Shown here piece after piece: positions 23,666 through 63,422 of a stretch of DNA of 64,000 nucleotides (position 1 is its first letter; each line of letters opens with the position of its first letter). Made by a program: the position numbers and the translations under genes. Source of the DNA: Gryganskiella cystojenkinii (Eukaryota > Mortierellomycota > Mortierellomycetes > Mortierellales > Mortierellaceae); contig JAAAIG010000061.1 in assembly GCA_015852425.1 (NCBI GenBank), positions 8,671 through 72,670 on the forward strand, in the 5' to 3' direction. The notes beneath the pieces are model-generated. The model saw nothing but the letters and a program-made list of their open reading frames with translations. It had not been told where the DNA came from and did not search any database.

Positions 23666-25256
23666 TGTGATGGGGTGACAATGAAATAAAGGGAGGAGAG
23701 GAGAGGATGAGGAGATGAAGAAAAAAAGGAATTAAAAAAAAGAGGGAAATGGAAATAAAAAAAAGGAAAGAAAGGGAGCGGGATCAATCGAAAGCGAGGA
23801 GGACGAGGAGCAGGCGGGTGATCCAAATCAATCAAATCGCGACTGTTTCCACTCAGGAACAACATTCACCATTAGAAACTGCCTTGTTGCTGAAGGTGAT
23901 CCGATCCATTCATCAATCTGTTCATTCATTTCATCGGGTCGACCATCTTTATAGGAATGGCCCTCTTGCACAAGCACTCTGTGCTGGCCCCTTCTTTCTA
24001 CCCTGGGCACGATTATTGGTCCTCCACATAAAACGACCGTGGACCGTTCCTTTTTTTGTGTCTGTTCCCCCGCACTCCGCAAAAAAAAACAGAAAATCGG
24101 CTCGGTCGCGCGCCTGCTGAACAAATCCAAGATTTTCTTTCATGGTCCGAACCATGGGTTGTCCTTCACTCGAGCTAACTATTATCCCTATTCCCATATC
24201 GATTCTCTTATCCCATCGGTAGTACTGGTGTCCGTGGGCATCATTTCGATTTCAATCTCTTCTGTGGGGAACTCCCGATTTCCCCGTGAGGCTGGAATTA
24301 TTATGATTTCCAACATTTGTTTTCTTTTCTTTTGAAGAGCTCCAAAATTTTCCCACGGGGTCCCAATTAGGGTGCCTGATCACTTCCTTTCGTTTCTCGC
24401 GCTGGGTTTGAACAGGATCGAATATTTTGGCGAAACCTGCCCCTCCCCCGTCTATTCTTCGATGACCGAGCTTGTCGACAACGCTGGAGTAAAAGAGAGG
24501 ACTACGATTAACGAGAAGAGGAAGCCAATGCCCGAAGAGAAAGAACGACGGTATCTCATCCGTCCCTTTCGTCAAGCACGCGTTGTTGATGGTTCATTGT
24601 GTATTGTTTTTTCAGGGCATGGCTCGGCTTGGCTCAAAACTGTTTAGGATGACAACATAATAAAAAAAACTCTTTTTTTTCTCCAGATCCCAAGCCTGTT
24701 ATAAACAAACAAATAAAAGGTCGCCGATCCGGATGTTGAAGCGATGCGGATGGCATTGAGAGAGAAAGTCATCATGAACCGCAAGCATACAGCTGCTGAG
24801 AAGAAAGAATGTGGAGAGGTCTTTTGTGGGACGTAGAAACGTTTCTACGATTCAAGACGCTACTATACGTCTATTCAAGTGCTCGTGTGTGTGTATGTTG
24901 GGTGGGGGTTTGGGAGTGTCTCTTTGCACACGGACTCACGTACAAAGTTGCAAGGGAGGGGATGAATGAAGATGTAACCAAATTCTGAATTGTCAAAGAG
25001 GAATGACATTGTGCGATCATCCTACGTGTGTGCCGACAACAGCAGTTTTTGATTGCTGTAGTCGTTCCTGCGTCTTACTTCGTTTCTTCTCCATCTTTTT
25101 CATTTCCGCTTCGTTCCAATCTTTTTTCTTTTCAGTGTCCCTTTTTTTTTGTTTTTTCCTCCTTTCTTTTCTTACTTTCCATCACTCTCTTTCTCTCTCC
25201 ACTCCATCTCCTCCATCTCCATCTCCTCCGTCTCCTCCCACATCATAAATTCCGCA
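23666..25256. promoter_or_regulatory. Shared divergent upstream region of PCCB and PCCA
   Basis: The two PCC subunit genes start 1.6 kb apart and point away from each other, with no convincing gene between them. The PCCB side (23668-23800) is purine-rich on + (pyrimidine-rich on the coding strand), and the PCCA side (25060-25250) is pyrimidine-rich on +. Together these look like two leaders flanking a central control region. I could not identify a specific transcription-factor site. Confidence 0.5.
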
Positions 25257-28134
25257 ATGTCGCTTTCGCTCGCCGCGGCCATCCCTCGTACTTCCGGTCG
25301 CTGGGTCTGCTCCTTGACCGCGACCCGCCAGCGCCTCTTCCATGCCTCGGCTCTTTCCCGCGCTCAATCTGCTGCTGTCGCCACACCTAACCAGGCTCAG
25401 GATTACTCCAGATTCGGCAAGGTAAAAAAAAAAAATACATCACTACCTCAACAATCAGGATGGACAACAAACTTTGGGTCAAATTACAGGATCGGTTTTC
25501 TAGAGGAAGCAACGATTCACTCTAGCTTGATCTGTTGAAGACAATCACCACTCCCTTTTTGGGTGCAAAGATCCGTCCAAGAAAGAGTCGATTGTACTTT
25601 TCTCCGGGTGAAATCATCTAACCACTCTGTGTATTCTATTCAATTGAAATGAATTTGTAGACCTTTGACAAGATTTTGATCGCCAACAGAGGAGAGATTG
25701 CTTGCCGTGTGATCAGGACTGCCAAGAAGATGGGAATCAAGACGGTCGCTATTCACTCGGATGCTGATGTCAACAGTTTGCACGTCCAGCTCGCTGACGA
25801 GGCCGTCAACGTGGTATGTTACTTCTTTTATTTTTTTTGACCATGTCGATTCAATGTGATGATCGTGATTGTAGTCTTCTGTTCCACAACGATATGATCA
25901 GGAACAAGAGTCCCACTCGTTCAGACTTATAGGAACACGAGGGGATGAAAAGCATAACCTGGACATTGCACCAAAACGCCTACCGTCAGAGTTCCCTGCT
26001 TGGTCGATGTTTCCTTTAAAGTGTCATCATAGCGCTAAACACACAAGGGAATAAGGTCCAGATCTCTGACTCTCCGCTATTCCGATCTTGTTCTTTTTTC
26101 AATGTAGGGGCCTGCTCCTACCTCCCAGAGTTACCTTAACGTCCCCAACATCCTTAAGGCCATCAAGGACACCGGTGCTCAGGCTGTTCACCCCGGTACG
26201 TTTTGGACAAAAAAACCAGGTCGATCATAGGTGATTCGTTTCGTGACAGTGAATACTCAACTGTAATTCTGGATTCTCCATCATCATATATAGGTTACGG
26301 TTTCTTGTCCGAGAACGCGTCGTTCGTCAAGGCTTTGGATGCCGCTGGTGTGACTTTCATCGGACCCTCGGAGGATGCCATGGCCGCCATGGGTGACAAG
26401 ATTCAGTCCAAGATCATCGCCAAGGAGTCCAAGGTCAACATTATCCCGGGATTCAACGGTGTTGTTCGTGATGTCGACCATGCGCTCGAAATCTCGCGCG
26501 AGATTGGATACCCCGTCATGTTGAAGGCCTCGGCCGGAGGTGGAGGAAAGGGTATGCGTATCGCCTGGAACGATGAGGAGGTCAAGGAGGGTTTCAAGAT
26601 TGCCAAGACCGAGTCCATGGCCTCGTTCGGTGACGACCGTCTCTTGATCGAGAAGTTTATCGATAACCCCCGTCACATTGAGATCCAGATCATCTCGGAC
26701 AAGCATGGCAACACCCTTTACTTGCCTGAGCGTGAGTGCTCGATCCAGCGCAGAAACCAAAAGGTCATTGAGGAGGCCCCCTCGACTCATATCGATGAGG
26801 CGACCCGCAAGGCCATGGGTGAGCAGGCCGTCATGTTGGCCAAGCACGTCAAGTACTCTTCTGCCGGTACCGTCGAGTTCTTGGTTGATTCTCAGCGCAA
26901 CTTTTACTTTTTGGAGATGAACACCCGTCTTCAGGTCGAGCACCCCATCACAGAATATATCACGGGCATGGATCTTGTCGAGCAGATGATCCGTGTCGCC
27001 GCTAACCAAAAGTTGATCCCCAAGCAGAAGGACATCAAGATCAACGGATGGGCCATCGAATCCCGTGTCTATGCCGAGGACCCCGAAAAGTACTTGCCCT
27101 CTATCGGTCGTCTCTCCAAGTACATTGAGCCTACCTCGACCAAGGGCCAGAACGAGGTCCGTTGCGATTCCGGTATTGTCGAGGGATCTGAGATTTCCAT
27201 CTACTACGATCCTATGATCTGCAAGCTCTGCACCCATGGTGCTTCCCGTGAGGAAGCCATCGAGAACATGAAGCGTGCCTTGGATTCTTATGTCATCAAG
27301 GGTGTTACTCACAACATTCCCCTTTTGCGTGAGGTTGTTTCCCATGACCGTTTTGCTTCTGGCAAGTACTCGACCAAGTTCTTGGCCGAGGAGTACCCTA
27401 CCGGTTTCAAGGGTCACTCTCCCACCCCTACTTCGCTCGCTCAGTTGGCTTCCATGGCTGGTATCATGCATGCCAAGCGTGAGCTCCGTAACTGGGCTTG
27501 GGGTAAGGGACGTGAGGCTCTCTTGAAGGAGGACCTTCAGGGCAAGGCCCCCCACAGCTGGGAGATCTTTATCGGTGTTCAGGGAGTTGATGAGAAGGTC
27601 CCCGTTAAGGTTGAGAGAATCGGACGTGCCGCCAACGGTGAGGATGAATTCGAGGTTTCTACTCCCGGTATGTCGCCCTTCAAGACTGCTGCTCACTGGC
27701 CTCTCGAGTCACCCTTGATCACCAACACTTTCGACAACGGTGAGGAAGTCACTCTGCAATACTTGGATACTTTGCCCTTGGGATTCCGTGTTCAGCATTT
27801 GGGTACCAAGTTTGACATCACGATCAACAACCCTGCTCAGCATGCGCTTTCAAAATACATGCCAATCAAGGAGAAGGCTTCAACGACCAACATGATCCTT
27901 TCGCCCATGCCCGGTTCCGTGGTCTCGGTCGATGTCAAGGTTGGTGATGTTGTTGCTGAGGGTACCGCGGTCGCAACAATCGAGGCCATGAAGATGGCGA
28001 ACGTGTTGCGCTCTGTCCGTGCTGGTGTTGTCAAGTCGGTCAAGGTCAAGGCTGGTGATTCTGTCGCTGGTGATGAGCTCTTGATCGAGTTTGAGGATGA
28101 GGCCAAGGAGGCCGTCAAGGAGGAGAAGAAGTAA
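25257..28134 (+). CDS. PCCA: Propionyl-CoA carboxylase alpha subunit, biotin-containing, mitochondrial
   Basis: This subunit holds biotin carboxylase and biotin carrier activities of propionyl-CoA carboxylase. Four exons (25257-25421, 25661-25813, 26108-26195, 26294-28134) give 748 residues, close to the human protein. Residues 1-45 are a mitochondrial presequence ([20 protein letters not shown]). The biotin carboxylase domain begins [20 protein letters not shown] and includes the ATP-grasp Gly-rich loop [15 protein letters not shown], the RHIEIQI strand and [14 protein letters not shown]. The BT linker domain follows. The biotin carrier domain ends the protein, with [14 protein letters not shown] (biotinylated Lys in AMKM) and a C-terminal [13 protein letters not shown]. 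The gene is divergent from PCCB, which suits co-expression of the subunits. Its last ~160 coding bases and 3' flank are duplicated at 38110. Confidence 0.96.
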
Positions 28135-28371
28135 ATTGATTGAATCGATTTTTTTTAGAAGTTAGTAGAAGACACGCAGCATTAAGATGGTTAGTTTGAA
28201 AAAGTTATCACACGCGAACACAATATATATAGTACAACGATTCTTTTTATTCGTCTTGTTGATACATTTGCTTAGAAATTGAGAGGTTGTTTCTTTTTGA
28301 GCTAGAGTCGTTTCCATTTCACAGTCAAGGGAATGGCACTACCGCCATCACAACATTAGGAATTACCCGCG
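27973..28371. repeat. Left copy of the ~400-bp direct repeat flanking the accessory island
   Basis: The repeat starts at GCAACAATCGAGGCC inside the PCCA biotin domain, runs through the PCCA stop and 3' flank, and continues into sequence homologous to the reverse complement of the UBE2T 3' end. By eye about nine in ten positions match the right copy, apart from small indels. The UBE2T-homologous part here (about 28270-28371) has a premature TAG five codons after the valine of the VERKR block, and a ~40-base deletion near 28340. The PCCA part is intact and functional. Confidence 0.9.
28270..28371 (-). pseudogene. Fragment of the UBE2T-like gene 3' end (dead copy)
   Basis: On the minus strand this reads LKKKQPLNF and stop, matching the C terminus of the intact gene ending at 38412. 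Upstream of that the frame carries Glu-to-Lys and Arg-to-Trp changes and an in-frame TAG where the intact copy has Leu. It ends abruptly at 28371, where the island begins. It is too short to be a gene and is a relict of the ancestral PCCA/UBE2T junction. Confidence 0.85.
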
Positions 28372-28453
28372 ACGTGTGAGGATTTTTGTGATTGTTTCCT
28401 CTCTGTCTAAGGGCAGGTTATCTCAAAAGAAACTCTCATTTGGACGAGTGAGA

Positions 28454-29785
28454 TCACATCGAAATGAAGGAAACGATTGAGAACACGAATAGAAAATAGA
28501 AGATTCCGTGACCCGCAGAGAGCTGAGCTTGTACGAAATTCTTTAACCAAGCCTCAGAAGTCTTTGAAAGTTGAAATCTCTTGAAAGCAAGGCTCTCGGC
28601 GGTTATGTCATGGAGTTGGTCCAAAGAGTATCCGGGATCTTGAAGGGTTTCCTGGAGAATTGTCGAATGGCTGACCATATACTCCTGATCAACGTCGAGT
28701 ACCTGGGGCAACAAACCGAAGTTGCACAAACACTGGTCTAGTCATCTAAGCCAGGAGCCCCAGGGAATATTTTTGTGGTTGTTGGAACCGTTGAACGTTG
28801 TTGGATGTCGAAGGCGGTAGAATAATCCGGAAATGACCGTGACAGAGACTACGTCCTTATACTCAGATACTAAGGAGAGGACTGACAATTGAGGTGACTG
28901 CTCGAGAAAGATCTTCACGTTTTCTTGATCCGACCTGGGATTGAAATGCGAACTAATATGGACCTCTCGAAGTCGTGTCAGCTTCATCCGAAATGCAGAA
29001 GAGCGCAAAATAGAAACCGTCGAGTCTGGTGATCTTGGCACAGACCAGCTTGGTATTCATCATGATGCGAACCAGATGATCACATCGTTTCCTACCGTTG
29101 AAGGTGTCTGTCGCAGGGCCTGTGTAGTTCCACAATCCAGACTGAGCTTTGACACGTTCACGGCTTGGAGTGCGTCCCTGAGCTGCTTGAGATCGCCATA
29201 GGTCCCAGTCCAGAGTCAAATCTATCTGCCATCCCGTTGTAGTTCTCGCGGTAGTGATCAAAGCAGACCCACTTTACGTGACCATCGTTGTGATCCTGTG
29301 AAGCTTGCCGGAACCTTAGCTGTGTCTCTGACTCTGAGGAACCGTGCCATTCGTTGCAACTCGGATCCTTCTAGTGCCTTTGCTTGGTTGATGGGCTTGA
29401 GATTTTCAGATGAGCAACTGCCATCTCGCCGAATCCTCTCCAGGGACTTGATTGCAGTATCCACTTGTGGTCCCAGGGGGCCAGTCGATGTTGACCAGGT
29501 CATCTTGTATTCTACCAACTCGATCCGTCAATTGGAGGTGCTCCAAAGGAGGAACAACATATCTGGTGACCGAAACTCCTAGTTTGAACATGCGCAGCAT
29601 TCCCAAGATATAGGGTCCGTAATTTTGAAAGATCTCAGTAGACTGTTCAAGCTCGTATCCTTCGTACTTGGCCATGTGGATATGATGCGGAATCCTGTTG
29701 CTACTTCTGGAAAAGTTTGTCTTTGTGTGCTCGCCAAGCTCGCATAGAAAGTAAAGTCGAAACTTTCTGTGAATAGGCTCAACAC
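28454..29785 (-). pseudogene. Decayed LRR/F-box-family-like gene
   Basis: Fragments on the minus strand switch frame repeatedly and contain several stops: LGVSVTRYVVPPLEHLQLTD, KSLERIRRDGSCSSENLKP, MMNTKLVCAKITRLDGFYFA and a C-terminal segment YMVSHSTILQETLQDPGYSL. Leu-rich spacing and the overall flavour resemble the large LRR/F-box families of Mortierella-like fungi, but no fragment is diagnostic. Splicing cannot rescue one continuous frame. It lies directly inside the left end of the island. Confidence 0.45.
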
Positions 29786-29879
29786 ATCCAGTCGTGAGCT
29801 TTCTTTGGGTAGGACGATTGAACAGCCTCGGAATCGTATACTCGAGTGACTCGAACGTCTAGATCAGAATGGAGCGGAT

Positions 29880-31974
29880 CCCATACTAAATGGCTATCAG
29901 GCTCTCGTCCGCTTGTCGTTGAAGACAATGTGTCAACATTTGCGTCATCTCTTGCTGCAAGTCTCGATTCTCGCCAATCTCGCTTCGCATGATGGTAAAG
30001 TGTTCACGGAAATCGACCTTAATTGAATCCGCTTGAGTCGCCTACCCATTATTGACAAACGCTAGAAAGGACTCGTAGAGAGTTCAGCTGAGAAAATGAG
30101 CGAGGACCTGGCAATGGAAAAAATTCGAAAATTAAAATAACGGTTTCATTCTTTGATCAATAATTAAATGGACTACATGAGGCCATCTGGGTATCATCGG
30201 ATAGCCCTGAAGTTTCTCAATCACCATGCAAACTTTGGGACGGATCCGACAAAAGCTGGAGGTGCAAATATTTGAAAACCACTACCGTATGAAAGACGCA
30301 AAAAGCATTTTTAATGCTTACAGAAGGAAAAGTAAAGGAATAAAGATCATATTTCAGAGATTAAAGGGTTTAATTAGGAGTGAAAGTTGGTGTACGTAAG
30401 GAAGGTAACGATTACGCAGCAGCGGGCTTTAGTGGCGTTGCTTGTTGATGATATCCGTTTGCAGGTGGCCAATGGGCGATTGTTACGGGGTGTTTATGGC
30501 GCATGCGTCAACACAGCCCGATACAATTGCGCCAGGTGGTGACACCAGAAAACAATAGCAGACAACTTCAAGGGACAGCCAGAAACAATACGAATGGACC
30601 ACATCAAGGACAACTTCAAGGGATCACATTCAAGGGATCACATTGAAGGGATCCTCATGTTTGGGAGGTCAGGGAGATCATCAAGATAAAAACAATTGTT
30701 TAAGTGCATTGCGGCAGTGCCGCTTTTGATTCTTTGGCCACAAACGTGATTCTGTCGGATTCGGGGACCAACGAACGAACGGCAAGCAGAAGCTGAGTGT
30801 GTCAGTGAGGAGCAAACTTCAAAGTGGGAATGAAGGAAGAACATGGAGACGCGTCCCATGGTTTAGTGATTCGTCCCTTGGGGTTTCTGTCCGGTTGGAT
30901 GCCTTAAAAATACCCTATTCTCTGAGCCTTGTATCACTCAAGGACCGACCATGATTCTCCTTCTCAAGGAAGAACCACCTCATGTAAGCTTTTATCCTCC
31001 ATACTGGCAGTGCCCACGCTCAAAACCGTGCTACGGGCGAGTGTTCTGTTCAAGGTCTCCAGGGTGATCGAGGATGGATCCGAATTCAAGTCGCTCCATA
31101 GCTTCGATCTTTACATCTCACTGTACTGTACAAGTAAATGGTTGAGTTATATACAGTCCCACGCTTGGTTGTAGTGTGTTGGGCTACAGAGATGTTTTTA
31201 AAGTGTGTTATGCTAGAAATAGGTGAGTTGTTGAGAATTGATGCTAATGTTGATTGTGGATATGCAAGGTTGTGTTATACAAGTGTATTATTAATGAATG
31301 GAGAATGTTGGCTTTTTTCACCGGCCCAGGGACAAGAGGGCCGGGACTAACCACAAGAGGTCTTTGATGGTAGTCGAAAGGACGTGGGAGGAAAATTACT
31401 CCATGATTTCCTCGCCGACGAATTCCAAGAACCGGTTCATGAATAGTTCCAGCTTGGCAACACGTTGTGGTGTAGTAAATCAGATCGATCGCTTTGTAAA
31501 GACAGTGCCTCTTATAATCGATCATATTAAAAGAGCGAGAGCAAAGGCAACGTTGCTGTTGGAACGTTTTCTTCCCTTCTATCCTTTGCATGAACCTTTG
31601 ATCTTGTTGAACAATACCTTCGTTTTGCCGACCATTTCTTACCTACGGTCCTCTTTGACAGCTGTCTCCTACCCACAGTCTTGTCCTCGACGATAATTTC
31701 CCGGTGCCATCCTCCTTTGTTCCCCGATCAAGTTTGAGCTTCCTCTCTGATAAATTGTCCCTTTTTCCTTTCAACCCTCTCCAATGCAAGGAGTCCCTTT
31801 TCGCTTGATAATACCTTACATCTGCCCTCGTTCCCTTTTGAGTAAGGATATCCCCAACCTCTGTTAGTTACACTACAACGTTCCTCGAGATGTTCAGGAG
31901 AGTCGGACGGACCTATCACAGATGAAAGTAGGTGCAAAGAAACAATAGAATGTATTAACTTCAAAATTACTCAC
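29880..31974. other. Intergenic island sequence with short tandem repeats, no supported gene
   Basis: No convincing coding frame is visible. At 30608-30652 there are near-perfect tandem copies of a CAAGGGATCACATT-type unit, and the related GACAACTTCAAGGGA occurs at about 30563 and 30609. Small frames near 30638, 31244 and 31728 have no recognisable domain, although the last might belong to the gene whose exon lies at 31975-32379. Confidence 0.4.
30608..30652. repeat. Short tandem repeat (about 14-16 bp unit)
   Basis: Two to three imperfect copies of CAAGGGATCACATT sit in a row, with a degenerate third copy (GAAGGGATCCTCAT). The preceding GACAACTTCAAGGGA is also repeated about 45 bases upstream. 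Confidence 0.65.
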
Positions 31975-32379
31975 GAGCGTTGGAAGCACAGTCTTTGGGA
32001 ATGTCAATAACATTTCGTTCATGCTTACCTGAAGATCGCTCACCATCTTCCGGACCGCTATTGGTGGAACCATTGTGGTGATTCCCTCGTCTTGTTCCTC
32101 GACGCCGTTAGTGGGTACCTCAGCTTGTCCCTCGACCCCGTTGGTGGATGCCTCAACATCTTCCTCGTCGCCGCTTTCCGAGCTTTCTTCTAAGAGACTG
32201 TTTGCATGATTGCGGCACTCTCCTGTCAGAATGATTTCGATTCGGTTGTTTTTGAGATCTTTGATATGTTCAAAACAATCTTTCACCGCGATTCTGATGA
32301 GTGGGCAAGTAGAAGCATGTCGGATGATCGAGGATATGCCGAGGGAGGTCTTTTCACAAATACAAATGGAGTCGAGACT
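31975..32379 (-). CDS. Exon of an uncharacterised protein with NGVE repeats (partial model)
   Basis: A 135-codon open exon is bounded by a good acceptor (GTCTTAG) and a good donor (GTGAGT). It encodes a helical-looking start (IRHASTCPLIRIAVKDCFEH then IKDLKNNRIEIILTGECRN). An acidic segment with two NGVE repeats (EASTNGVEGQAEVPTNGVEE) and a hydrophobic end (MVSDLQVSMNEMLLTFP) follow. Upstream exons near 32530-32750 and downstream coding at 31728-31912 are possible but the phase does not fix one model. I do not recognise the family. Confidence 0.35.
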
Positions 32380-32749
32380 CTAAGACTCTTATCGGAAAAA
32401 TGAGATCCTGTAGAATTTCCTCGTCGACTTGGCAGTGAGTTCTTTGTGACAGTCTCGGTGGTGGACAGCAACCCGCTTTTTGTCAAACTCTTCTGAGGTG
32501 GCTGAGGTGGTTGCCAGGCACAGACTGTACTTACACTGACGAGGCGTCGTCGTCGCTGGGTCGGTGGAAATATATGGAAGGTGGTGTGAGATGAATGGGA
32601 CTGAGAGAAAAGAGAAAATGAACGCAATTCCTCAGTGTAAACCCATAAAATAGTCTAACTTGCCTCGTAAAATAGTCTTTTCGCTGATTGTGAAAATTAG
32701 CCACTTTTGTGACTGTCCCAAAACCCGCGACCTTGCGCGCTGACACCTT

Positions 32750-33295
32750 ATGGTTGTATCCTCATAAGTATCTTTTGTTCACACAGTATCTGATCCCCAG
32801 GTCCCTAAATCTATGGCATCCCATGGCATGCGGAAACTGTCACGAACACAACCACAAGATCTGATGTCCGCATCCACCTCCAATAGTCCTTGCAACATCA
32901 GACTATAAGTTACATCAAATTCGTGAGGACGTCTGTTTGAGGTCCGGGTTCTCTCTGTCACAACGGAGACTATGTATGGTGATTGCAAAAAGGCCAATTC
33001 ACCTGACTTCCCAAGATCCCTCTTATCAGTGGCAACAACAATAAGTCACCAGTGAAGTTCTGCTGAAGTCAAATACATCTTTCATTACCCATAGAGTTTC
33101 ATTCCTAGGCGAAACTTGAGAGCTGAAAACAAAGATTCATTGCAAAAGTAACTCAAGTATTAAAAGTTGCCTCGGCAGAGAGCCGAATCCTTCCTGTCTC
33201 CCCCAGACTCAGCCTCGCCACATAATATATGACCGATTGATATTGCCGCCAACCTGCTACCCATTGCGCTGGACAAAAAATATCCTTTTGGCATA
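32750..33295. other. Intergenic island sequence, nothing recognised
   Basis: No frame longer than about 70 codons and no repeat was noticed. This is the 3' flank of the CaiB/BaiF gene. Confidence 0.5.
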
Positions 33296-34913
33296 CTAAG
33301 TAGTACGAGGAAGCCATTCAGGTTTTGAGGAACCTATGGGGGAGATGATCGGATCCGCCCAGTGTTCTGGTGTTTCAGACATCTCAACCTGAGAGCCAAG
33401 ACGGGTGAATTCTCCGAACGCCGTCTGTCCTGTCTGGAGATTGGGCTGTACTGGCTTATGTTCAGGTCCCAACTTATCCATATCGAGAAGCACGTTGTTG
33501 TCGACCAGCCCGAGTGCTTGCTCAAACATGATCGTTTGCGACAAGGTAACTGTCACTAGATAACTACCACCTTCGGTAGCGCGTCGCAGCAATGCAGCTT
33601 GGGCCCCGATCGATCCCAAGTAGCCGGTTAAGAAGTCGCATACCACGTTCACGCCATGCGGTAACTGAGGTTGATCCGCCGACCCTATATCGCACAACAT
33701 TCCGCTGAGGCCAGCTGCCGTAAAGTCATATCCCATCCAGTCAGCCCATGGCCCAGATGGCGTGTTTAGCTTTACCCTCACGTAAATGATGCCCGGTCGA
33801 TATTTTGCTAAGTTTCCTGCGGAAAACCCTTGCTGATCTGCCAAATGTGGGCGCAGATTCTCGACAAAGACGTCCGCGTCCTTGACGAGTTCGTAGATTG
33901 CTTTCTTGTTCCCATCAACACGTGCGTCTAGATAGGCCTGGCGAATTCCAGCTTGACACTGCCAAAACATGGTAGGTTCTTCAACCCAGTTCAAGGTATT
34001 GAGGTTGAGGCAATCCGCACCTTGCGCGGACAGCTGTCGCAAGACTGTCGGCCCAGCGACCACATGCACCATACCGAGAACTCGGACCCCCGAGAGCGGC
34101 CGAGAGCCAGGAAGGAATGGCTCGGGTTTGCTGTCACCGATCTTCTCGATATGGATGAGCGGCGTTGCGGCATGGCGCTGATACTGTTCGCTGGCTTGAA
34201 ATTCCTGTCGGGTCCGGCATACAACTAACGGCACGCATGCGTCTTGCGCTGCATTCTCCAGGTCGAACGCGTCCCACTTTCGCGTTGCCCGCTCAAGCTG
34301 TTTTGGCAACGTGCCACTATCAAGCAAGTGCATGATTCTTTCGGTATTGGAGCTGTAAAGTGAGGTCAAAATGACGAAGCGCCCGTCCCTCGTCGGCAAG
34401 ATGTGGCTACCCAGCTCACCAACGTTTCCGCCCATCATTTGCGGCGTGCCCTAGTTAATGTTAATGTGTAGAAATGTTAGCCTCATGGTCAATAATTGGC
34501 CGATTAAGGTTGTTTGGGAGATTCGAGATGTTGTCTCGGGAGAACAACTGCAGAGTTAAGACTGTTCAGGATCGGAAACGGATTGTGCCTCCAATACCTA
34601 CATTGACCAACGTGTTGTGAGTGAGAATATCTTGCCATGGACTCTGGATAACATAGGCCTTTCGAAGATCAATGTGTATATCCTGGCCTTTGCCTGATCG
34701 CTTCTTCCAAATGATTGCAGAGGCAATCGCGTTTGCGCCGCTCACAGCCGCCGAAGCGCAACCGACCTTGATGTGGGTTGGACGGATGGGATCCATTCCT
34801 GCGAACGTTATATCCCCGCCGAGATCATTGCGGGTTAAACCAGCCTCTCGTAGCAGGCCATCCACCACGGCCAGCAGGTCTTCGTGGTTATTCACCGGCG
34901 CGTAAGAGAACAT
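33296..34913 (-). CDS. CaiB/BaiF-type (class III) CoA-transferase or acyl-CoA racemase
   Basis: Two exons (34913-34602 and 34450-33296) join as NTLVN-GTPQMMGGNVG, for 488 residues from MFSYAPVNNHEDLL; an upstream in-frame ATG at 35000 is less likely. The protein has two halves. The first resembles the C-terminal part of family III CoA-transferases (SAIIWKKRSGKGQDIHIDL, HILPTRDGRFVILTSLYSS). The second carries the usual N-terminal Rossmann-like block (RPLSGVRVLGMVHVVAGPTV, DADVFVENLRPH, GIIYVRVKLN, WMGYDFTAAGLSGML). The Asp of the GYDFTAAGLSG motif aligns with the catalytic Asp of this family. It is probably cytosolic or peroxisomal; substrate unknown (carnitine/bile-acid-type CoA transfer, formyl-CoA transfer or 2-methylacyl-CoA racemisation). 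It is the only intact metabolic gene in the island, and the family is common in bacteria. Confidence 0.85.
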
Positions 34914-35000
34914 TGCAATACTCCTTTTTCGTATCGTGAGGTTACAGTATGAAAAGTGATCAGCTTTCTGAAGGTGAAGAACGGAGGCAGAGAAGGACAA

Positions 35001-36043
35001 GGTTTCCTTTTCGGGTTGTGTGTGTGCGTTGATTAATGGGGGTGAGGAAAGGAAAGAAAAAAAGTCGGGGCTGATAAGATTGGGGGGACGAATATGTGTT
35101 ATGGAATAATTCCATGGTTATTGTCTTGCTTTCAGTATTGCATGAGCAGTTTTATTCCCAATTCCATGCAACAAAGTGAAATCCTTCGCCACCAATTTGA
35201 GAGTCGTGCCCTCGAATTTTTGGGCGAAGTCACGAGAAACATTTCACTCCTGTTGGCAATTATGGGATGGCGAAAGTCCTTTGGTTTGAGTCGACATCGT
35301 GCCGAAACAGGTGGATCTCAGATATTTCATCTCTTCCCTTCAATACCTCTATCACACGTCCTTCTCGTTTCACTTGCCCGCACAGCACTGCGCGTAAATT
35401 ATCTATTATAGATAAACTCACTTTCCACCGTCTTACCTTGTCTTGCCTCACACTTGGGATACTCACCAAAGCTGGTCAACGTCTTCACAGCATTCTTCCC
35501 TTTCACAATTACTTTCCCTCCCCAGCCTCAAACCTCATCCGCCCACCTGGCCATAATGATCCGCGTCGCTCCTAATCAAGCAACTTGACGTTGAACGATT
35601 CAGGTGATATATTTCTGCAAGTCGTACCGTGATGGCGTCCAGAAATATGTTGTTGCTGTCCCGTTTGGCCCTTTCAGTACTGTTTCAGAGACTCTAGCTT
35701 GAAAATAATAGAATAGAATCCAACGGATTTCTTAGAGAACGGCTGTGAGGAGCGCGTTGGGGTATACTCCTTTGAACACACTCACGTATAAATACGTCTT
35801 TTTTATCCTCTGACCTTCTAGGAGCCATTACAGGGGCAGTGGGCAGCTTTAAACACAACCCAAAAAACACATAAGTCCATCTTGAAATAAAAAACGAATT
35901 CGGCAATCGGGAAGTAGTTGAGACTAATGAGCGTAAACGCACGGATCATTTTGAGCGACCTTACTGTTTTAGAGAGTCTTATTGACGCGTCACCTTACCG
36001 CGCCGCACTTCCAGCTCATTCAACAGTCGGCCTAGCCTTCCAT
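35001..36043. other. Intergenic island sequence, no gene seen
   Basis: This stretch holds the upstream region of the CaiB/BaiF gene and about 0.7 kb of AT-rich sequence with short unsupported frames. No repeat or RNA signature was noted. Confidence 0.5.
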
Positions 36044-36238
36044 ATGAAGCATTCCATCCCCTTTTTGGTTTTGATACCGCTTATTGTAGTCACAAGTGCC
36101 CGTTCCAACTCGAGTCGTTGGAGTTGGCATACAGGAGATAAGCATCAATTTGCGACCATCCAAGGTTTCCGAAGTGGTCAACAATGCTTTGACATTGGTT
36201 TGCACTTCGCTGTGGCGGTTGTAGTCTCCTTCTCCTAA
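36044..36238 (+). CDS. Very small secreted-protein candidate
   Basis: From the ATG at 36044 the frame encodes 64 residues starting MKHSIPFLVLIPLIVVTSAR, which looks like a signal peptide. A short polar mature part (NSSRWSWHTGDKHQFATIQG, one Cys) follows, then a hydrophobic tail (IGLHFAVAVVVSFS). The start is not forced, since the open frame extends upstream to 35918. It lies about 0.9 kb before another secreted-protein gene on the same strand. Confidence 0.35.
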   Translation: MKHSIPFLVLIPLIVVTSARSNSSRWSWHTGDKHQFATIQGFRSGQQCFDIGLHFAVAVVVSFS

Positions 36239-36464
36239 TGAACAATATCAAGAGTGCTATTCTCAAACTGGGTCGACGTCCCCCTGTATGATCTTTATAG
36301 AACAAAATCTTTGAAACATAGTGCTTAATATCACACCGCTCAGAAACACTATATCTGACAACCCATCTGCAACAGATATATAATTTACAAACCCTTACGA
36401 AAATAAAAAAAATCGTTCCAGGTTAACAACCTAGAAGAGTTTACTTGAATGATACGCGTAAGAT

Positions 36465-36540
36465 GTAGGTGGGAGAACGAACATAAAGGCATCAAAAAGC
36501 AACGTGACTATAACAGCTTGGCTGCCACAAGCAAGCAAAC
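36465..36540. repeat. Dispersed repeat, copy A
   Basis: The segment around ATCAAAAAGCAACGTGACTA and TTGGCTGCCACAAGC resembles 37740-37815. Both copies lie 250-300 bases after the stop of a small secreted-protein candidate. Confidence 0.5.
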
Positions 36541-36589
36541 ATCTCTATTTTTATCATTTTTCGGCTAGCTCCTTGATCTTTCCAGGTAC

Positions 36590-37109
36590 CACATCCCCTT
36601 AGTTCTTCCAGTGCTTACTCAGTTCTTCCAGTGTCCCCGTAGCTTTTCCAACGCCCTCCTTGGATTTTCCAGCATCCCTTAAAGTTGTCCTCCCCTACCG
36701 TCCCTTCATGTTAACTTTTGATGATGTCTCCCCTCTGTGTTGTCCTTCAATGTTAATTGTTCTTGTCCTTCACTGCTACCCTTCGTGTTGTCCCTTGATG
36801 GTGTCCATAGATTTCTCGCAAGCTGCAAGTACGGAGATATATCCACATTTGCCTTGTTTCAGAGGCCACAATCTTGTTTCCCAGAACGCTCTTTGGGACT
36901 TCGGTCTACTTCCCTTCTCAGCATACCCTTGATCTTTTCAACGTCTCGTCTATTCTCAAGATACTCCATTGCTCTTGTTCCGGCGAAGCCTAAAAAAGAG
37001 TCATACGACGAAGTCCCTTCGATATCCTTCTTCTCCCTTAATTCCCAACTACATTCCAGTTTCCTCGCCCTCAAGTCCCCACTACATTCTGGTTCCTTCT
37101 CCCTCAAAT
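36590..37109 (+). promoter_or_regulatory. Repeat-rich leader of the FERP secreted-protein gene
   Basis: This pyrimidine-rich region contains imperfect tandem repeats. AGTTCTTCCAGTG/TTTTCCA-type units lie at about 36600-36670, and CCCTCAAGTCCCCACTACATTC-like units lie at about 37030-37105, directly before the ATG. Open frames here are low-complexity and probably noncoding. Confidence 0.45.
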
Positions 37110-37472
37110 ATGTTGCCGCAAAACCTGTTTCTTCTTCTCACTATTGGGACCTTCGCCGCTGCATTACCTCTGCCCCAGGAAGTAGAGGTTAGGGAAATAG
37201 AGGAGATCGAAAGATTTGAACGGCCCAGAGAAGTGTTCTTGGAGGAACCATTCGAAAGGCCCAAAGAACTTCTGGAGGAGATATTCGAAAGGCCCAGGGG
37301 AGTGCTTGTAGGTGATGAAGCATTCGAACGCGAGAATATCAGAGCTGACGACCTTTTAAACCATGCCGAAGTCGATCGACTTCGATTCGACGGCGACCAC
37401 TGGCATCCAAAACACGATTCAGTTGAAGAGTACGGACCCGTTGTAATCACGCAGAACAGTTTCATTAACTGA
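37110..37472 (+). CDS. Small secreted acidic protein with FERP repeats
   Basis: The frame encodes 120 residues starting MLPQNLFLLLTIGTFAAALP, a strong signal peptide with cleavage expected around AAALP. The mature protein carries at least three tandem units of about 15 residues built on FERPREVFLEE, FERPKELLEE and FERPRGVL, with a fourth degenerate FEREN. A charged C terminus follows (DRLRFDGDHWHPKHDSVEEY). There are no cysteines. Repeats with Glu-Arg-Pro turns suggest an extended or helical repeat protein. The family is not known to me. It lies in the island, consistent with an accessory or effector-like gene, but that is inference. Confidence 0.55.
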   Translation: MLPQNLFLLLTIGTFAAALPLPQEVEVREIEEIERFERPREVFLEEPFERPKELLEEIFERPRGVLVGDEAFERENIRADDLLNHAEVDRLRFDGDHWHPKHDSVEEYGPVVITQNSFIN

Positions 37473-37511
37473 GAGAATTATCTATCTGATTCTGATATGG
37501 CTATCATATTA

Positions 37512-37539
37512 GCCAGGCACACCGATATGGTGTGCTGGC
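37512..37539. terminator. Near-perfect inverted repeat just after the FERP gene
   Basis: GCCAGGCACACC, a GATAT loop and GGTGTGCTGGC form a stem with one bulged G, 40 bases past the stop codon. It could be a 3'-UTR hairpin. Eukaryotic terminators are not hairpin-driven, so a function in termination is not claimed. Confidence 0.4.
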
Positions 37540-37739
37540 ATTCCCCAATAAAACGCCACTCTTTTCCTTATTCAGCCTTGCAATCAAAATATTCACATTC
37601 TGCTATAGAAAATGGGAAATGTTGAAATGAGTGCAGCTATTGACGCACTGTCTAGATCACGACGCGAGAAATTGAATCAATAATCAAGTCCCTAACGTGT
37701 TTTCAAATCTACAACCCGCCCTCTCATTCTCCGACAGGG

Positions 37740-37815
37740 AGGAGAGAATGAGCCGACATTGAAGGATCAAAAATAACGTAGCTATGAACGTTTGGCTACC
37801 ACAAGCCAGTTAGAG
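37740..37815. repeat. Dispersed repeat, copy B
   Basis: ATCAAAAATAACGTAGCTAT and TTGGCTACCACAAGC match copy A at 36465-36540 with substitutions. The two copies are in direct orientation. Confidence 0.5.
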
Positions 37816-38109
37816 GCTCTTCCGTGCCGCTAGCAGCAGTGACGTTTTGAGCAAGCACTTGAACAAGGGGCGAAGTGAACCATGAGTTATTTTTTTAGTC
37901 AAACAGGCAAATAAATGTTTAGAAATTCTTGCAAGAGAGTGATAAGGCTGTCTTTTTTGCTCTTGGGAGGAGTGGGTAATAACGTTTGTCTTTAATGCTC
38001 CTGGGAGAGGGTAAAAGCGCACGAGTGTCGATGTTACGTTCCTCCTTGGGCGTGAACGTCATTTTTCTCAGTGTGAGCACAAGTCACAGAAGCGATTTTG
38101 GTTTTTGGT

Positions 38110-38269
38110 GCAACAATCGAGGCCAAGAAGATGGCGACGTGTTGCGCTCTGTCCGTGCTGGTGTTGTCAAGTCGTTCATGGTCAAAGCTGGTGATTCTGT
38201 CGCTGGTAATGAGCTCTTGACCGAGTTTGAGGATGAGGTCAAGGAGGCCGTCAAGGAGGAGAAGAAGTG
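38110..38269 (+). pseudogene. Fragment of PCCA (biotin-carrier domain), dead copy
   Basis: This copies the last ~160 coding bases of PCCA. The biotin-attachment motif AMKM has become AKKM by an ATG-to-AAG change, and one base is missing just after it (GCGAACGTG to GCGACGTG). Downstream the old frame survives ([20 protein letters not shown] to [11 protein letters not shown] and stop) with several amino-acid changes. It has no promoter or N-terminal domains and so cannot make a working subunit. Confidence 0.9.
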
Positions 38270-38545
38270 AATTGATCTAATCGAATTTTTTTAGAAGTTA
38301 ATAGAAGACACGCAGCATAAGGCGATTAGTTCGAAAATGTCGCCACACGCGAACAAAATATATATAATATTATACAACGACTCTTATTTATTCGTTTGTT
38401 AATACATTTGCTTAGAAATTGAGAGGTTGTTTCTTCTTGAGCAAGAGCCGTTTCCGTTCCACGGTCAAGGGAATGGCACTACCGCCACCGCTAATCGTTG
38501 AGATGGAGGTGTGTTCTACAGGGGCAACATTGGGAATGACCCGCG
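38110..38545. repeat. Right copy of the ~400-bp direct repeat flanking the accessory island
   Basis: This copy begins with the same GCAACAATCGAGGCC as the left copy, includes a dead PCCA 3' end and its 3' flank, and runs into the intact 3' end of the UBE2T-like gene. It keeps about 40 bases (near 38488-38527) that the left copy has lost. Confidence 0.9.
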
Positions 38546-40803
38546 TCCTTTCGGATAAGGGGGCCACGAATGCCTTTCCATCACCGTTTCCGACTTTGGC
38601 GTGGATGTTATTGGGCTTTGTAATAATCTCTGTCGCAGCTGTTCGTGTAGATCCTGATGAAAAAAGAGAGTTCATGGCTTCCACAGCTCGTCCTTTACCC
38701 TTGTCGAGTCGAGGCCCGGGAGGCTCCTCGTCCTCGGCTTTATCTTCTTGATTTTCTTTCCCAGGTGATTCTGTTTTGAGTCGGTCATGAGCTGTTTCGA
38801 CCGAACAAGCATGCGGAGACTCCAAGACAGCCGGGTCCTGTGCTCTCCTGGGGACGTACTCAAAAACAGGTGTTTCAGCTGTACGACCAAATGTTGGTTC
38901 CAGAACAGACTCGGGGGTAGCTGTGTTGGTACGCTCTTCAGCATCAGGGATCACCATGCCAATTGTTGCACGTTCAACGGTGTCTTGAACAATGAGAGCC
39001 ACCGTCCTCGTCATATCTCGTGGATTAGCAGGAGCCAACAATGGACTCGACAATGTGTCCTCGGGTTGCACGAGATCATTATCGTCGTCGATCACGATTG
39101 CTGTGTTGGTTGCAGTCATCAAAGGTGACTCTGGATCTGTCCTAGGCTTCTTTTTCGAGCGTTTTTTGACGGGCGATACCGATGCCATTGTGCTCGCGGC
39201 GTCAAAGTCTCGTTTCTTCTTTGAGGAAGAAGAAAAAGATGGTTTCACACAAGAAGATCCTTTGGGTGAGGATGACGATGAAGTGGATGGGGAGGAGTGT
39301 AATGGCAATGCTTTCGCAGTTGTCGCAGTTGTCGTCGTTGTTGTCGTTGTCAGAGAGTTCCTTTGTGTCGGTTCCGGATCCTGTTTAACCTCATTCAAAA
39401 CGGTATCATTCGCCATCGGCTCAGCATTTGGTGCGAATAATACGCTTGCCGGTGTATCAGCAGTAGAACCTGGCGTCGAAGTAGTTGTTGCTGTAATGAT
39501 GTCTGGCGACGGTGAAGGCGATCTCTGTGCATGTGGCTTTCGAGTGCTCAAATTGGGTTTCTTAAGCGTGAGTAGCCCCTTCTTGAGCGACAACCGTCCA
39601 AGACTCGAGATTGGACCAAGATCTGATCCCAATGATCCTAGGAATGAGTTTGGTATTGATGAAATAGTTGAAGACCCCGTAGTGCCTTGTGAAGATGACG
39701 ACGATGGAAACCTTGAAGACGAAGATGAAGATACTGATAGCGGTAGTGTCGGCACTGATGATTCTAATGTATCTGAAGGTTTCAGCCCGGCAGTGTCAGC
39801 AGGAATCGTGGATGTGAAATCCTATGAGGGCAAAAAAAACATGTGGGCTTTGGTTAATAAGAAGCGTCCCGTACCGTCAACAAAGGATAAGTCTGTTACT
39901 CAACAAAAATTAAAAAGCTTTAGAAAGAATAACAATTACCTCCGCATGCGTCAAAAGCTTGGGATTCTCAGTCTTTCCAGTTGCGTGTCGTTCTGTGTAT
40001 TCCTTTGCTTTGTGTGTGAAGACTGCGTGGTTCTCTTTGAATTCGTTGGCCTGCGATAAGAAGGAGGGAAAAAGACTGTCAAAATCAGACAAGTTGAATA
40101 TTACAAACATCAACACCCAGGTACCACAGAATATTGTGTCAAGATTTCTTTACCACATCCACAAGGAGAGGGTCGTCTGGGTTGGGATAGGCGAGCAGGA
40201 CTCTTAGAGATGTCAACACGGTTTGAATGCTCAAGGACGGTTTCCATGTTCCTTTGGATCCTGTTTTCAAGATATCCAGACAAATTCGCCCTTGATCGTC
40301 AATGTTTGGGTGGTATACCCTTGTGATAAACTGACATCTTGGTGGCTCCATCGGATAGCTAATAGGACGTTGACAATGGAGGTCATTTGTTAATCCTTGA
40401 GTTTGTGTTGCCGTGCCCCCTTTTCTTCTTTTCTTTTCTTCTGGATAGTACGGCGCCACTAAAGACAAGCGGTTCGTGTCTGTACCGGTCCGGGATATTG
40501 ATATCAACTTGAAACTTGCCGCCCGCGTAAGGCGTGTCCAGGGGTCCTTCAAGTTCTATACGAAATAATCAGCAAAGGGTAGACAAGTCAGCGTTAGTTC
40601 CAGCTTTGACCGTTACGAGAAATAAAGTGGAGAGAAGAGATTTAGGTGGTCTCAAGCAATCGTCGTGCCTGACTTTTGTTTTTACCTGCGTGGAGATGGA
40701 CCATGCTGTCGTTGACAGGGTAACAAATCACACCCTCGGGCGGTTTGCATTCCAGGTCCTTGAGCTCCTTCCTCATTCTCATCAGACCCATGGTTCCTGA
40801 CAT
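38412..40803 (-). CDS. UBE2T: UBE2T-like ubiquitin-conjugating enzyme with a long disordered C-terminal tail
   Basis: Five exons (40803-40686, 40555-40486, 40358-40154, 40050-39940, 39821-38412) give 637 residues. The first ~165 form a complete E2 fold: MRMRKELKDLECKPPEGV, DTPYAGGKFQVDINIPDRYP, then TRVYHPNIDDQGRICLDILK with the catalytic Cys and HPN motif. KGTWKPSLSIQTVLTSLRVL, NPDDPLLVDVVANEFKEN and KAKEYTERHA follow. These blocks match UBE2T, the E2 of the Fanconi anaemia pathway that monoubiquitinates FANCD2/FANCI in DNA crosslink repair. Animal UBE2T has about 200 residues, while here ~470 Ser/Thr/Pro-rich residues follow. That tail includes basic nuclear-signal-like patches (PVKKRSKKKPR, ERKRLLLKKK). 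It is divergent from TIM22 (476 bases apart). Confidence 0.88.
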
Positions 40804-41279
40804 GGTGATGGTCTTGTTGTTCGTACGAGTGTTTGAATGTGCTGTGGGACCGTTTACTGTCGAAGTGTGGATGAAGGAGTGAAATGGGTGTCAAACAAAG
40901 TGAAGAATGCACGGCAAAACTCAAAAAAAAGGGACCGCATCGAAATGGTGGCGTTTCCTTTTAAGGGTCTGCAGCGACAGATCTCATCTCACGTGCAATT
41001 CATTTTCGACGGTCACAATTTCCAGATTTGTTTCCTTTGGTATCGAACTCTTTTTTTTTTTTTTTTTTTTCCTCTCCATCAACACCCGAAACGAACAAAG
41101 CGGACAAACGGATTACCTCAACGGCTCCATTCTCTTTTCAGGAACCACCGGATAACCGACATCAAACGATCACCTCCTTTCCTTCATTGGAACCTCACAT
41201 TCATCACTCTTCCTCCACCTCGAGTAAATACCCTCAGCACCTCCACTCGCTCCTTATCAACCACTTTTAATACTTCAAG
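40804..41279. promoter_or_regulatory. Divergent promoter region, UBE2T-like and TIM22
   Basis: The 476 bases between the two start codons contain a T run of about 20 near 41050-41070 and a pyrimidine-rich leader on the TIM22 side. No specific site was identified. Confidence 0.4.
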
Positions 41280-42085
41280 ATGAACATGAACCCCATGCCA
41301 CAACAACCAGGTCAACCTGGTGGAGCCTCTCCCGACCAAGTCGCTCTCTTCAACTCTGTCTTCCGTGAGAACTGTCCTTTCAAGTTTGTCTTTGGTGGTG
41401 TCACAGGTACGAGCTATAGCTCTCTTTTTCTTTAACATGGAGAGAATCCAGATCAGCCCTTATCTTACCAGCGATCTGACTGAAGGGGAGCGGACCGATC
41501 TATAACGAGAACTTTGACAGATTGCTGACATGTGTGTTTCTTGGCGTATTTGATTGTATAATCTTATAGGTTTCGCCTTGGGAGGAGTCTTTGGTATCGT
41601 CATGTCCTCGTTCGAGTTTGCTGGACCCCAGTTGACGCCGCAGCTTCAGGAGTTGTCGACCAGGGAACAGATGAAGATCATGCTGAAGGATATGGGATCC
41701 AGATCATATTCGTCCGCAAAGAACTTTGCCGTCGTCGCCGCCATCTTTTCTTCAAGTGAATGTTTTATTGAAGGCGTAAGTTCTACCGCTTTTTTCTATT
41801 GATTGAAGAGCCAGGAACATGCTATTACACTTTTATGATGTTATACAGGATCGAATGAAAGAAGACCCGGAAACGAAGTTCTGACTTTCTCCTTTTATTC
41901 TTTTGCCTGTATGTCTCCAATAGTACCGCGCCAAGAACGACATCTACAACGGAGCTGCTGCTGGATGCTTTACTGGAGGTGTCTTGGCCGCAAAGGGTGG
42001 TGCCAAGGCCTCCGCCTTTGGATGCGCTGGTTTCGCTGCCTTCTCAACAGCTATTGATTACTGGATGAGACATTCAGCGGAGTAG
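41280..42085 (+). CDS. TIM22: Tim22, channel subunit of the TIM22 carrier translocase
   Basis: Tim22 inserts carrier-type proteins into the mitochondrial inner membrane. Three exons (41280-41406, 41570-41775, 41924-42085) give 164 residues. A Pro/Gln-rich N terminus ([15 protein letters not shown]) precedes [20 protein letters not shown], the first glycine-rich membrane segment. An intermembrane loop containing the conserved [20 protein letters not shown] follows. The last exon has [20 protein letters not shown] and [20 protein letters not shown], the Tim17/22/23-type segments. Length and motifs are typical. Confidence 0.94.
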
Positions 42086-62174: not shown

Positions 62175-63422
62175 CTAACTATCAGTTAACCGATATGGTG
62201 GTGGTGCTTCACTAGGAAGAATTGTATCTAGGTGGCTGTATGTCAACAAGATCTCTTGTTCTTGTTCTTGCTCTTTTGATGTAGCCGGTTCTTGATATTG
62301 TCTCGGACATTTGGAATCGCTGTCGTAAAACTCATACAGGGCGCTCAAGTTGTTCTGGGCCATGGCATGTCCTTGATTTGCGGCCTTCGAGTACCACTCC
62401 ATGGCTTTGCGATAGTCCTGTGGAACACCTTTGCCATTTTCATACAGTTCACCAATATAGGTTATATTGGGCGCTGGTTTGTTCTTGGTTGGCAGCTCGC
62501 AAATACCACTCCTTGGCTTTGCGATAGTCCTGTAGAATACCTCTGCCGCTCCCGTAGAGGTAACCAAGGGTATATTGGGCGTTAGCAAAACCTTGATTTG
62601 CGGCCGTTGAGTACCACTCCATGGCTTTGCGATAGTCCCGTGGAACACCTTTGCCGTGTTCATATATGACGCCTAAGAAATGGTCTGGGCTCTGGCATAT
62701 CCTTGATTGGCAGCCTTGGAGTACCACTTCACGGCTTTGCAATAATCTTGTGGAACAACTCTGCCTTTGTCGTACATGACGCCCAAGTTGTACTGGGCGA
62801 TAGCAAGACCTTGATTTGCGGCTTTCAAATACCACTCAAGAGCTTTGTAGTAGTCCTGTGGGACACCGTCACCATGTTGATATTGACATCCCAGGAGAAG
62901 CTGCGCTTGGGCGGTTTCTTGGTCGGCGACTCCAAAGGACTGTTCAATGGCACACGTGGATGTGTTGGCTTTTTCCTTAGTCGAAACCACACTTAACATT
63001 GCCACTGGAGAATCAATAGTAACATGGTCTGTGGCGACGGAAAGCACAACCTCTAGGACTTTGCCTGGGCTATACTTGATTCAGTAGGGCTTTATTCTAT
63101 AAAGAAAATCATGACACGATTAGAATGGCCTAACCGCTATTCTCATTGTCAGAGACTGCGCTCATTACGTACATATCCAAGGGATCTAACGCTACCTGTG
63201 TCGATTTGAATCTCTGAGTTGCTTGACTACAGAACCGTCATTGCGGATGTACTGGACTCTTGGAAAGACTTGCTCGATATCCTCCCAGAGGATCACTGAC
63301 TGCCCATTGACATCATCAACACCAATGCTTTCGATGTGAGTGGTCCCAGCTACGCGAAATGATTGCTTTCTCACCATCAGGTGTTCTAGACGATGTATTA
63401 TGGTTCTGGGTAGGAGTCTCAA
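62175..63422 (-). pseudogene. Sel1-repeat (HCP-like) gene with two frameshifts
   Basis: Exon 1 (63422-63196, possibly starting at 63377 with MVRKQS) encodes RVAGTTHIESIGVDDVNGQS and VILWEDIEQVFPRVQYI, an N-terminal module I associate with Mortierella-type Sel1 proteins. It joins in phase to exon 2 from 63069 as RDSNRHSPGKVLEVVLSVAT. Exon 2 encodes at least four Sel1 repeats of the form YxxGxGVPQDYxKAxEWYxKAANQG. After the second repeat a single base is missing (near 62680), and after the fourth a 4-base ATAT appears (near 62460). Each shifts frame, and coding resumes cleanly after each. Sel1 repeats are solenoid scaffolds, for example in ERAD. Two independent shifts favour a recent pseudogene over sequencing error, but error is not excluded. 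Confidence 0.7.

Follow-up and report, generated by a model that had tools for sequence, protein, structure and literature searches.

Repair of broken chromosomes with duplication of the broken stretch, or with capture of distant DNA, has been described in flies, plants, fungi and humans. Here we compare with these systems a 9.7-kb island in the fungus Gryganskiella cystojenkinii (Mortierellaceae), located in the 64,000 nucleotides at positions 8,671–72,670 of contig JAAAIG010000061.1 (the window; all other positions count from its first letter). The island is bounded by direct repeats of about 400 bp, each of which fuses the 3′ end of PCCA, the gene for the alpha subunit of propionyl-CoA carboxylase, to the 3′ end of a gene for a UBE2T-like ubiquitin-conjugating enzyme (E2); PCCA is whole on the left and UBE2T on the right (Table 1). 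This structure is real, and an insertion that duplicated a long target accounts for it well. In plants, patch-mediated tandem duplications were reportedly described by Vaughn and Bennetzen in 2014. Plant duplications of this type resemble our locus in that a target duplication is attributed to repair of nearby nicks. They are mostly shorter than 125–200 bp, however, with some cases above 1 kb in rice, and the available part of the source describes no captured insert of 9.7 kb (PMC7971508).

Inversions in Drosophila are similar in carrying a duplicated stretch of a few hundred base pairs or more at the break, and the staggered-break duplications reported in the portion of that study drawn on here range from a few hundred base pairs to 8 kb and leave a functional gene copy (PMC4965816). 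Those duplications accompany an inversion, whereas the repeats at our locus are direct, bound an insertion and lie in a fungal host. In Magnaporthe oryzae, repair of breaks leaves large insertions, which can contain coding sequence and DNA from elsewhere in the genome, and small tandem duplications also arise; these breaks were induced in the laboratory, however, and the accessible sections mention no duplicated flanks of 400 bp (PMC9684475). Circle-mediated segmental duplications in humans likewise place distant DNA at a new locus without transposon ends, but they show flipped order and only micro-changes at their borders, with no long direct repeats in the excerpts available (PMC7450558). 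Adjacent breakpoints in human genomes have also been attributed to replicated staggered ends (PMC12807874, available in part). Relative to the published examples compared, as far as these partial sources go, the scar described here has a longer duplication and a more composite insert; it is thus unusual in size, while its kind is already known. Literature searches on Mortierella propionyl-CoA carboxylase and on segmental duplication in Mortierellaceae found no paper on this locus, as judged by title.

Direct repeats at the PCCA/UBE2T junction

BLASTN aligned positions 27973–28347 with 38110–38487 as direct repeats, with 342 of 381 columns identical and 9 gap columns (E = 8e-144). Past a gap of about 36 nt the similarity extends, by eye, to about 28371 and 38545, in agreement with the limits that a first-pass annotation of the window had given (27973–28371 and 38110–38545). 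Homology is not limited to PCCA: the alignment spans 137 intergenic positions and 73 positions in UBE2T as well, and both repeats hold the same stretch, which supports the earlier proposal that the island accompanies a duplication of the junction. The self-comparison that it had proposed as a check recovered both border repeats, together with one further repeat set in the 64 kb, a tandem cluster at 62.3–62.9 kb. When the left repeat was used as a DNA query against the genome's own assembly (34,989,676 bases in 1050 contigs), two matches were returned, namely the two repeats in the window. For comparison, direct repeats at E = 1e-10 were found in one of eight other stretches of the genome (68,068 bases in all), the single case being a tandem array; the eight stretches adjoin island paralogs or contig ends and are not a random sample.

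The state of the two genes differs between the borders in the way first proposed, with PCCA whole and UBE2T broken on the left and the reverse on the right. Left PCCA is open to its stop codon, and its last exon contains the Pfam domains CPSase_L_D2, Biotin_carb_C, PCC_BT and Biotin_lipoyl; among the matches listed, it is at most 93% identical to proteins of other Mortierellaceae (Podila, Linnemannia, Gamsiella and other genera). The right UBE2T tail is also open, and the E2 domain (Pfam UQ_con) lies in an exon of its own. The best solved-structure matches of the window E2 are UBE2T (E = 3.7e-51), and homologs in relatives are named E2 T. The left UBE2T remnant is interrupted by an in-frame stop; in the right PCCA tail, 1 nt is deleted and codons have changed. 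Besides these remnants, the assembly contains a single full match to PCCA and a single one to the UBE2T tail exon; further PCCA matches are other biotin carboxylases at 33–54% identity. Substitutions between the two junction copies number 8/161 in the PCCA part (seven of the eight at codon positions 1 or 2), 16/137 in the intergenic part and 6/73 in the UBE2T part. These rates would fit a one-sided decay in which left PCCA is under selection and the right copy is drifting.

Evidence from relatives supports linkage of PCCA and UBE2T before the island was present, as had been suggested from the window alone. The two genes lie on contigs of identical size in three of the eight Mortierellaceae named in both homolog lists: Mortierella sp. 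AD094 (9,120 bp), M. claussenii (18,639 bp) and Mortierella sp. NVP85 (35,392 bp). This comparison covers the best 120 of 8000 PCCA rows and 65 UBE2T rows, uses the longest contig per protein cluster, and takes equal contig size within one species or strain to mean the same contig. Among other fungi named in both lists with a contig size, none of six agree (Entrophospora candida, listed without a size, was left out), so chance agreement is not common. The AD094 contig must carry the coding sequences of PCCA (703 aa, about 2.1 kb) and UBE2T (600 aa, about 1.8 kb), and at 9,120 bp it cannot also accommodate the 9,738-bp island; among the three linked relatives, it alone excludes the island by size. 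Thus, linkage before the island is supported, as is a derived state of the island, the latter by size in one relative. Because the window itself holds two junction copies, the genes would have been directly adjacent before the island, and we infer that they are direct neighbours in the relatives as well.

Origin of the island

We favour, with moderate confidence, a model in which the island originated by fill-in of a staggered break with capture of DNA. PCCA and UBE2T would have been convergent neighbours at the start, and a double-strand break whose nicks were separated by about 400 bp would have opened their common 3′ region. Fill-in from both ends would have duplicated the stretch of about 400 bp, and unrelated DNA (a fragment of a gene here called gene B, a CoA-transferase block and other pieces) would have been placed between the ends by end joining. 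With the stagger covering both 3′ ends, one whole copy of each gene would be kept and the leftover halves would decay. Any account of the locus must duplicate the junction once, insert foreign pieces and keep both genes, and a stagger of about 400 bp would achieve all of this in one step; we infer the staggered break, the end joining and the joint arrival of the pieces. Third positions of gene B differ from the counterpart on C258 at 80/565, compared with 16/137 in the intergenic part of the junction (Fisher p = 0.49) and 22/210 in the intergenic and UBE2T parts together (p = 0.19). The power of these comparisons is low, and the absence of a significant difference makes a single date possible. 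At the borders, similarity to gene B starts 19 bp past the left repeat, and the right end has no donor match in the assembly.

A second hint for staggered-break repair comes from C258, where a 765-bp stretch (L020:1698-2462) lies between direct repeats of about 41–68 bp and is lacking from the window copy of the same region. The stretch has a G+C content of 41.6%, contains a 119-aa reading frame and has no other match in the assembly, and the case is similar in shape to the island. A small reading frame follows each of its direct repeats, and what was duplicated may therefore be a promoter.

Several observations weigh against repair of a staggered break. Most of the island DNA, its right end included, is without a known donor in the assembly. 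The slower decay of the PCCA part of the junction relative to the rest is not significant at the 5% level (Fisher p = 0.057). Contig sizes for PCCA and UBE2T differ in five of the eight Mortierellaceae (L. gamsii, L. exigua, D. globulifera, A. wolfii and A. ambigua), which may mean that the strains were not the same, that contigs are split or that the genes were truly rearranged. The C258 case carries no polarity and may instead be a deletion from the copy in the window. Tandem duplications in rice fall to a 5% share by 200 bp, with some above 1 kb (PMC7971508, available in part), so 400 bp is long by that standard. Finally, no break was observed as such, and a prior tandem duplication or a circle could leave the same scar.

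The first of these alternatives is a tandem duplication of the junction, about 400 bp in length, that preceded the island, with the pieces inserted later between the copies in one or more steps. It would yield an identical final structure, and several insertions would account for the mosaic island; perfect tandem duplications above 1 kb do occur in rice (PMC7971508, available in part). However, unless DNA was also deleted, the later insertion would have had to strike no farther than about 20 bp from the seam in a target of about 800 bp, and the lack of a significant difference between the divergences of gene B and the junction also speaks against duplication having come first. We regard this order of events as unlikely, though worth keeping in view.

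Integration of a chimeric DNA circle, carrying a junction copy beside island DNA, by homologous recombination at the junction would also give direct repeats of the common stretch, and circle-mediated duplications have been described (PMC7450558, available in part). Nonetheless, no third junction copy was found in the assembly, and one must suppose that the circle had itself captured the junction. The flipped order that marks such events in the same source is not seen here, where the gene B patches are colinear with C258, the one donor that can be compared. We consider a circle decidedly improbable. Less probable still is a tandem duplication of a larger block containing PCCA and UBE2T, each copy of which then lost one gene and most of the rest. 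Reciprocal loss of this sort would leave one whole gene per side, but in the self-BLAST the island resembled no other part of the window, and thus showed no trace of duplicated flanks, and the assembly holds no second PCCA or UBE2T tail beyond the remnants. The first-pass annotation had named circle integration, break repair and segmental duplication as mechanisms that could all give this structure: break repair fits best, a circle or a prior tandem duplication is less probable, and a large segmental duplication is disfavoured by the self-BLAST.

It is very improbable that a transposable element, whether a large captain-led element or an array of miniature inverted-repeat transposable elements (MITEs), delivered the island and caused the duplication. 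The island does contain a MITE-like element and short dispersed repeats, but no inverted repeats of at least 30 bp were found in 25000–42000, where six shorter pairs lie inside the island and none at its borders. Nor was a transposase or tyrosine recombinase domain found in 14 island pieces, covering part of its reading frames, that were scanned against Pfam. A duplication of 400 bp is, to our knowledge, far beyond known transposon target duplications. The earlier statement that no transposase or terminal inverted repeats were seen thus holds for the borders and for the 14 pieces, but not for the MITE-like element, which has inverted ends. An assembly artefact, conceivable in an assembly of 1050 contigs, is hardly credible, given that the copies are about 10% different, that their longest common exact run of 38 bp makes a short-read misjoin unlikely, that each remnant decayed separately and that two independent false joins would be needed.

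If staggered-break repair is the correct explanation, break repair can set 10 kb of composite DNA that includes a bacterial-type gene between two fungal genes and leave both unharmed, because both gene ends are preserved in the duplication. Such events could then be counted in genomes by their mark, long direct repeats accompanied by decayed tails of genes, and there would be a transposon-free route for relocating horizontally gained genes. A wider model, in which Mortierellaceae repeatedly take up multi-kb composite DNA, bacterial genes included, by transposon-free fill-in and capture at staggered breaks, is speculative and rather improbable. In that model the stagger would range from tens to hundreds of bases, and each event would leave long direct repeats and spare the neighbouring genes. 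If recurrent uptake did occur, it would have produced both the island and the 765-bp stretch on C258, and the CoA-transferase gene would be cargo that was moved or gained.

Composition of the island

Matches elsewhere in the assembly account for 2,549 of the 9,738 island bases. The island is a mosaic whose pieces have separate kin. The gene B counterpart on C258 is an open stop-to-stop frame of 739 aa, whereas the window copy has many frameshifts and lacks its 5′ part; weaker matches to the fragment occur on C572 and C517. Between the gene B fragment and the patches of its upstream region lies a 5.1-kb block that has no match on C258 and holds both the MITE-like element and the CoA-transferase gene. 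The frameshifted gene B and a match to Pfam PF02515 bear out two earlier descriptions of the island, as a carrier of wrecked genes and of a CoA-transferase gene.

Table 1. Positions of the genes, junction copies and island features in the window
Feature	Position	Strand	Basis or remark
PCCA, propionyl-CoA carboxylase alpha subunit, intact	25257..28134	+	Pfam; upstream exons joined by eye
Left junction copy: PCCA 3′ end, intergenic DNA, broken UBE2T 3′ end	27973..28371	+	BLASTN; 28348-28371 by eye
UBE2T 3′ remnant with in-frame stop	28275..28371	-	Translation compared with right copy; weak protein match, E 2.7e-4
Island, 9,738 bp, between junction copies	28372..38109		Bounded by repeats
Gene B, wrecked 3′ fragment, no Pfam domain found	28391..30125	-	84-87% to C258:41729-43654
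MITE-like dispersed element, 420 bp	31462..31881		Inverted ends, 12/13 bases complementary
Family III CoA-transferase, 488 aa; exons 34913-34602 and 34450-33296, one 151-bp intron	33296..34913	-	Pfam PF02515
Patches of region upstream of gene B	35254..35579	-	80-85%, colinear with C258; without 765-bp C258 stretch
Short dispersed repeat copy	36474..36541		Assembly search
119-aa reading frame, hydrophobic N-terminus, possible secreted protein	37113..37472	+	No Pfam match; signal peptide by eye
Copy of short dispersed repeat also at 36474-36541	37707..37812		Holds 35/40 matches of assembly search
Right junction copy: decayed PCCA 3′ end, intergenic DNA, UBE2T 3′ end	38110..38545	+	BLASTN, by eye
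UBE2T-like ubiquitin-conjugating enzyme, intact	38412..40803	-	Pfam UQ_con; exons joined by eye

The element at 31462–31881 is 73–78% identical to six other loci in the assembly, with shorter pieces in addition. It is short, ends in inverted repeats and occurs in several copies, the features on which we class it as MITE-like. In an alignment of five relatives of up to about 440 bp, both ends are kept in three (L006, L007 and L009) and the start is lacking in two; no target site duplication was evident by eye at the window copy. The two copies of the short dispersed repeat flank the candidate secreted-protein frame, the one candidate of this kind that was inspected, by eye. No family exceeded the cut-off in Pfam scans of gene B, its C258 neighbours, the candidate secreted protein and further reading frames of the island; matches to PIG-U (E = 0.04) and DUF6924 (E = 0.059) fell below the curated cut-offs and were set aside.

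The CoA-transferase gene and its relatives

Exon 2 of the island CoA-transferase matches PF02515 at 121.2 bits, against a curated cut-off of 23.3, and the gene's sole match in the assembly is itself. Among the best 120 of 1128 rows, the closest named relative is a protein of M. alpina (89%); Scytalidium lignicola has 81%, and the highest named bacterium, Streptomyces griseoluteus, stands at 79%. When the M. alpina protein was scanned against bacterial and archaeal genomes, a scan that detects close relatives only, one locus was returned, in Granulicella sp. L60, at 82% identity. The Granulicella gene is likewise a family III CoA-transferase of PF02515; the island gene differs from it in its 151-bp intron and its place on a fungal chromosome. 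At the DNA level the island exons are 73% identical to it in two blocks, which abut in the bacterium and flank the intron in the window. A tree was built from 77 rows, namely the window protein, Granulicella and 75 of those 120; in it, the window protein groups with M. alpina and two unnamed proteins (support 96/84). This group lies inside a clade of 29 rows that also includes Granulicella, with Scytalidium elsewhere in the same clade. By these comparisons the gene is of bacterial type; transfer from bacteria is probable, and the gene likely gained its intron in the fungus.

The distribution of the gene in Mortierellaceae may be patchy: rows named as this family make up 1 of the best 120 for the CoA-transferase, compared with 17 of the best 120 for PCCA. 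Most rows are unnamed, and 90% clusters can hide species, so this is a hint only. In M. alpina the contig listed for the CoA-transferase measures 3,734,467 bp, and those of the three UBE2T rows measure 19,619, 127,967 and 1,677,841 bp; we see no sign that the two genes are close together there, though the rows may come from different assemblies. A search of the main text of PMC11291939, a paper on transfers into 44 early diverging fungi, found neither "CoA-transferase" nor "CoA transferase".

The Scytalidium protein (P0031, marked partial) lacks about 29 residues just past the place of the window intron, which may be an effect of the gene model if an intron lies at about the same position there. 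At the Granulicella locus (L036:3992-7461), the CoA-transferase follows two reading frames, which we take from the sequences to be dehydrogenase-like and SMP-30-like. Elsewhere, the copies of the tandem cluster near the right end of the window (62332–62887) are 70–79% alike, and the tandem array on C562 (L026:6234-7714) has a period of about 126 bp.

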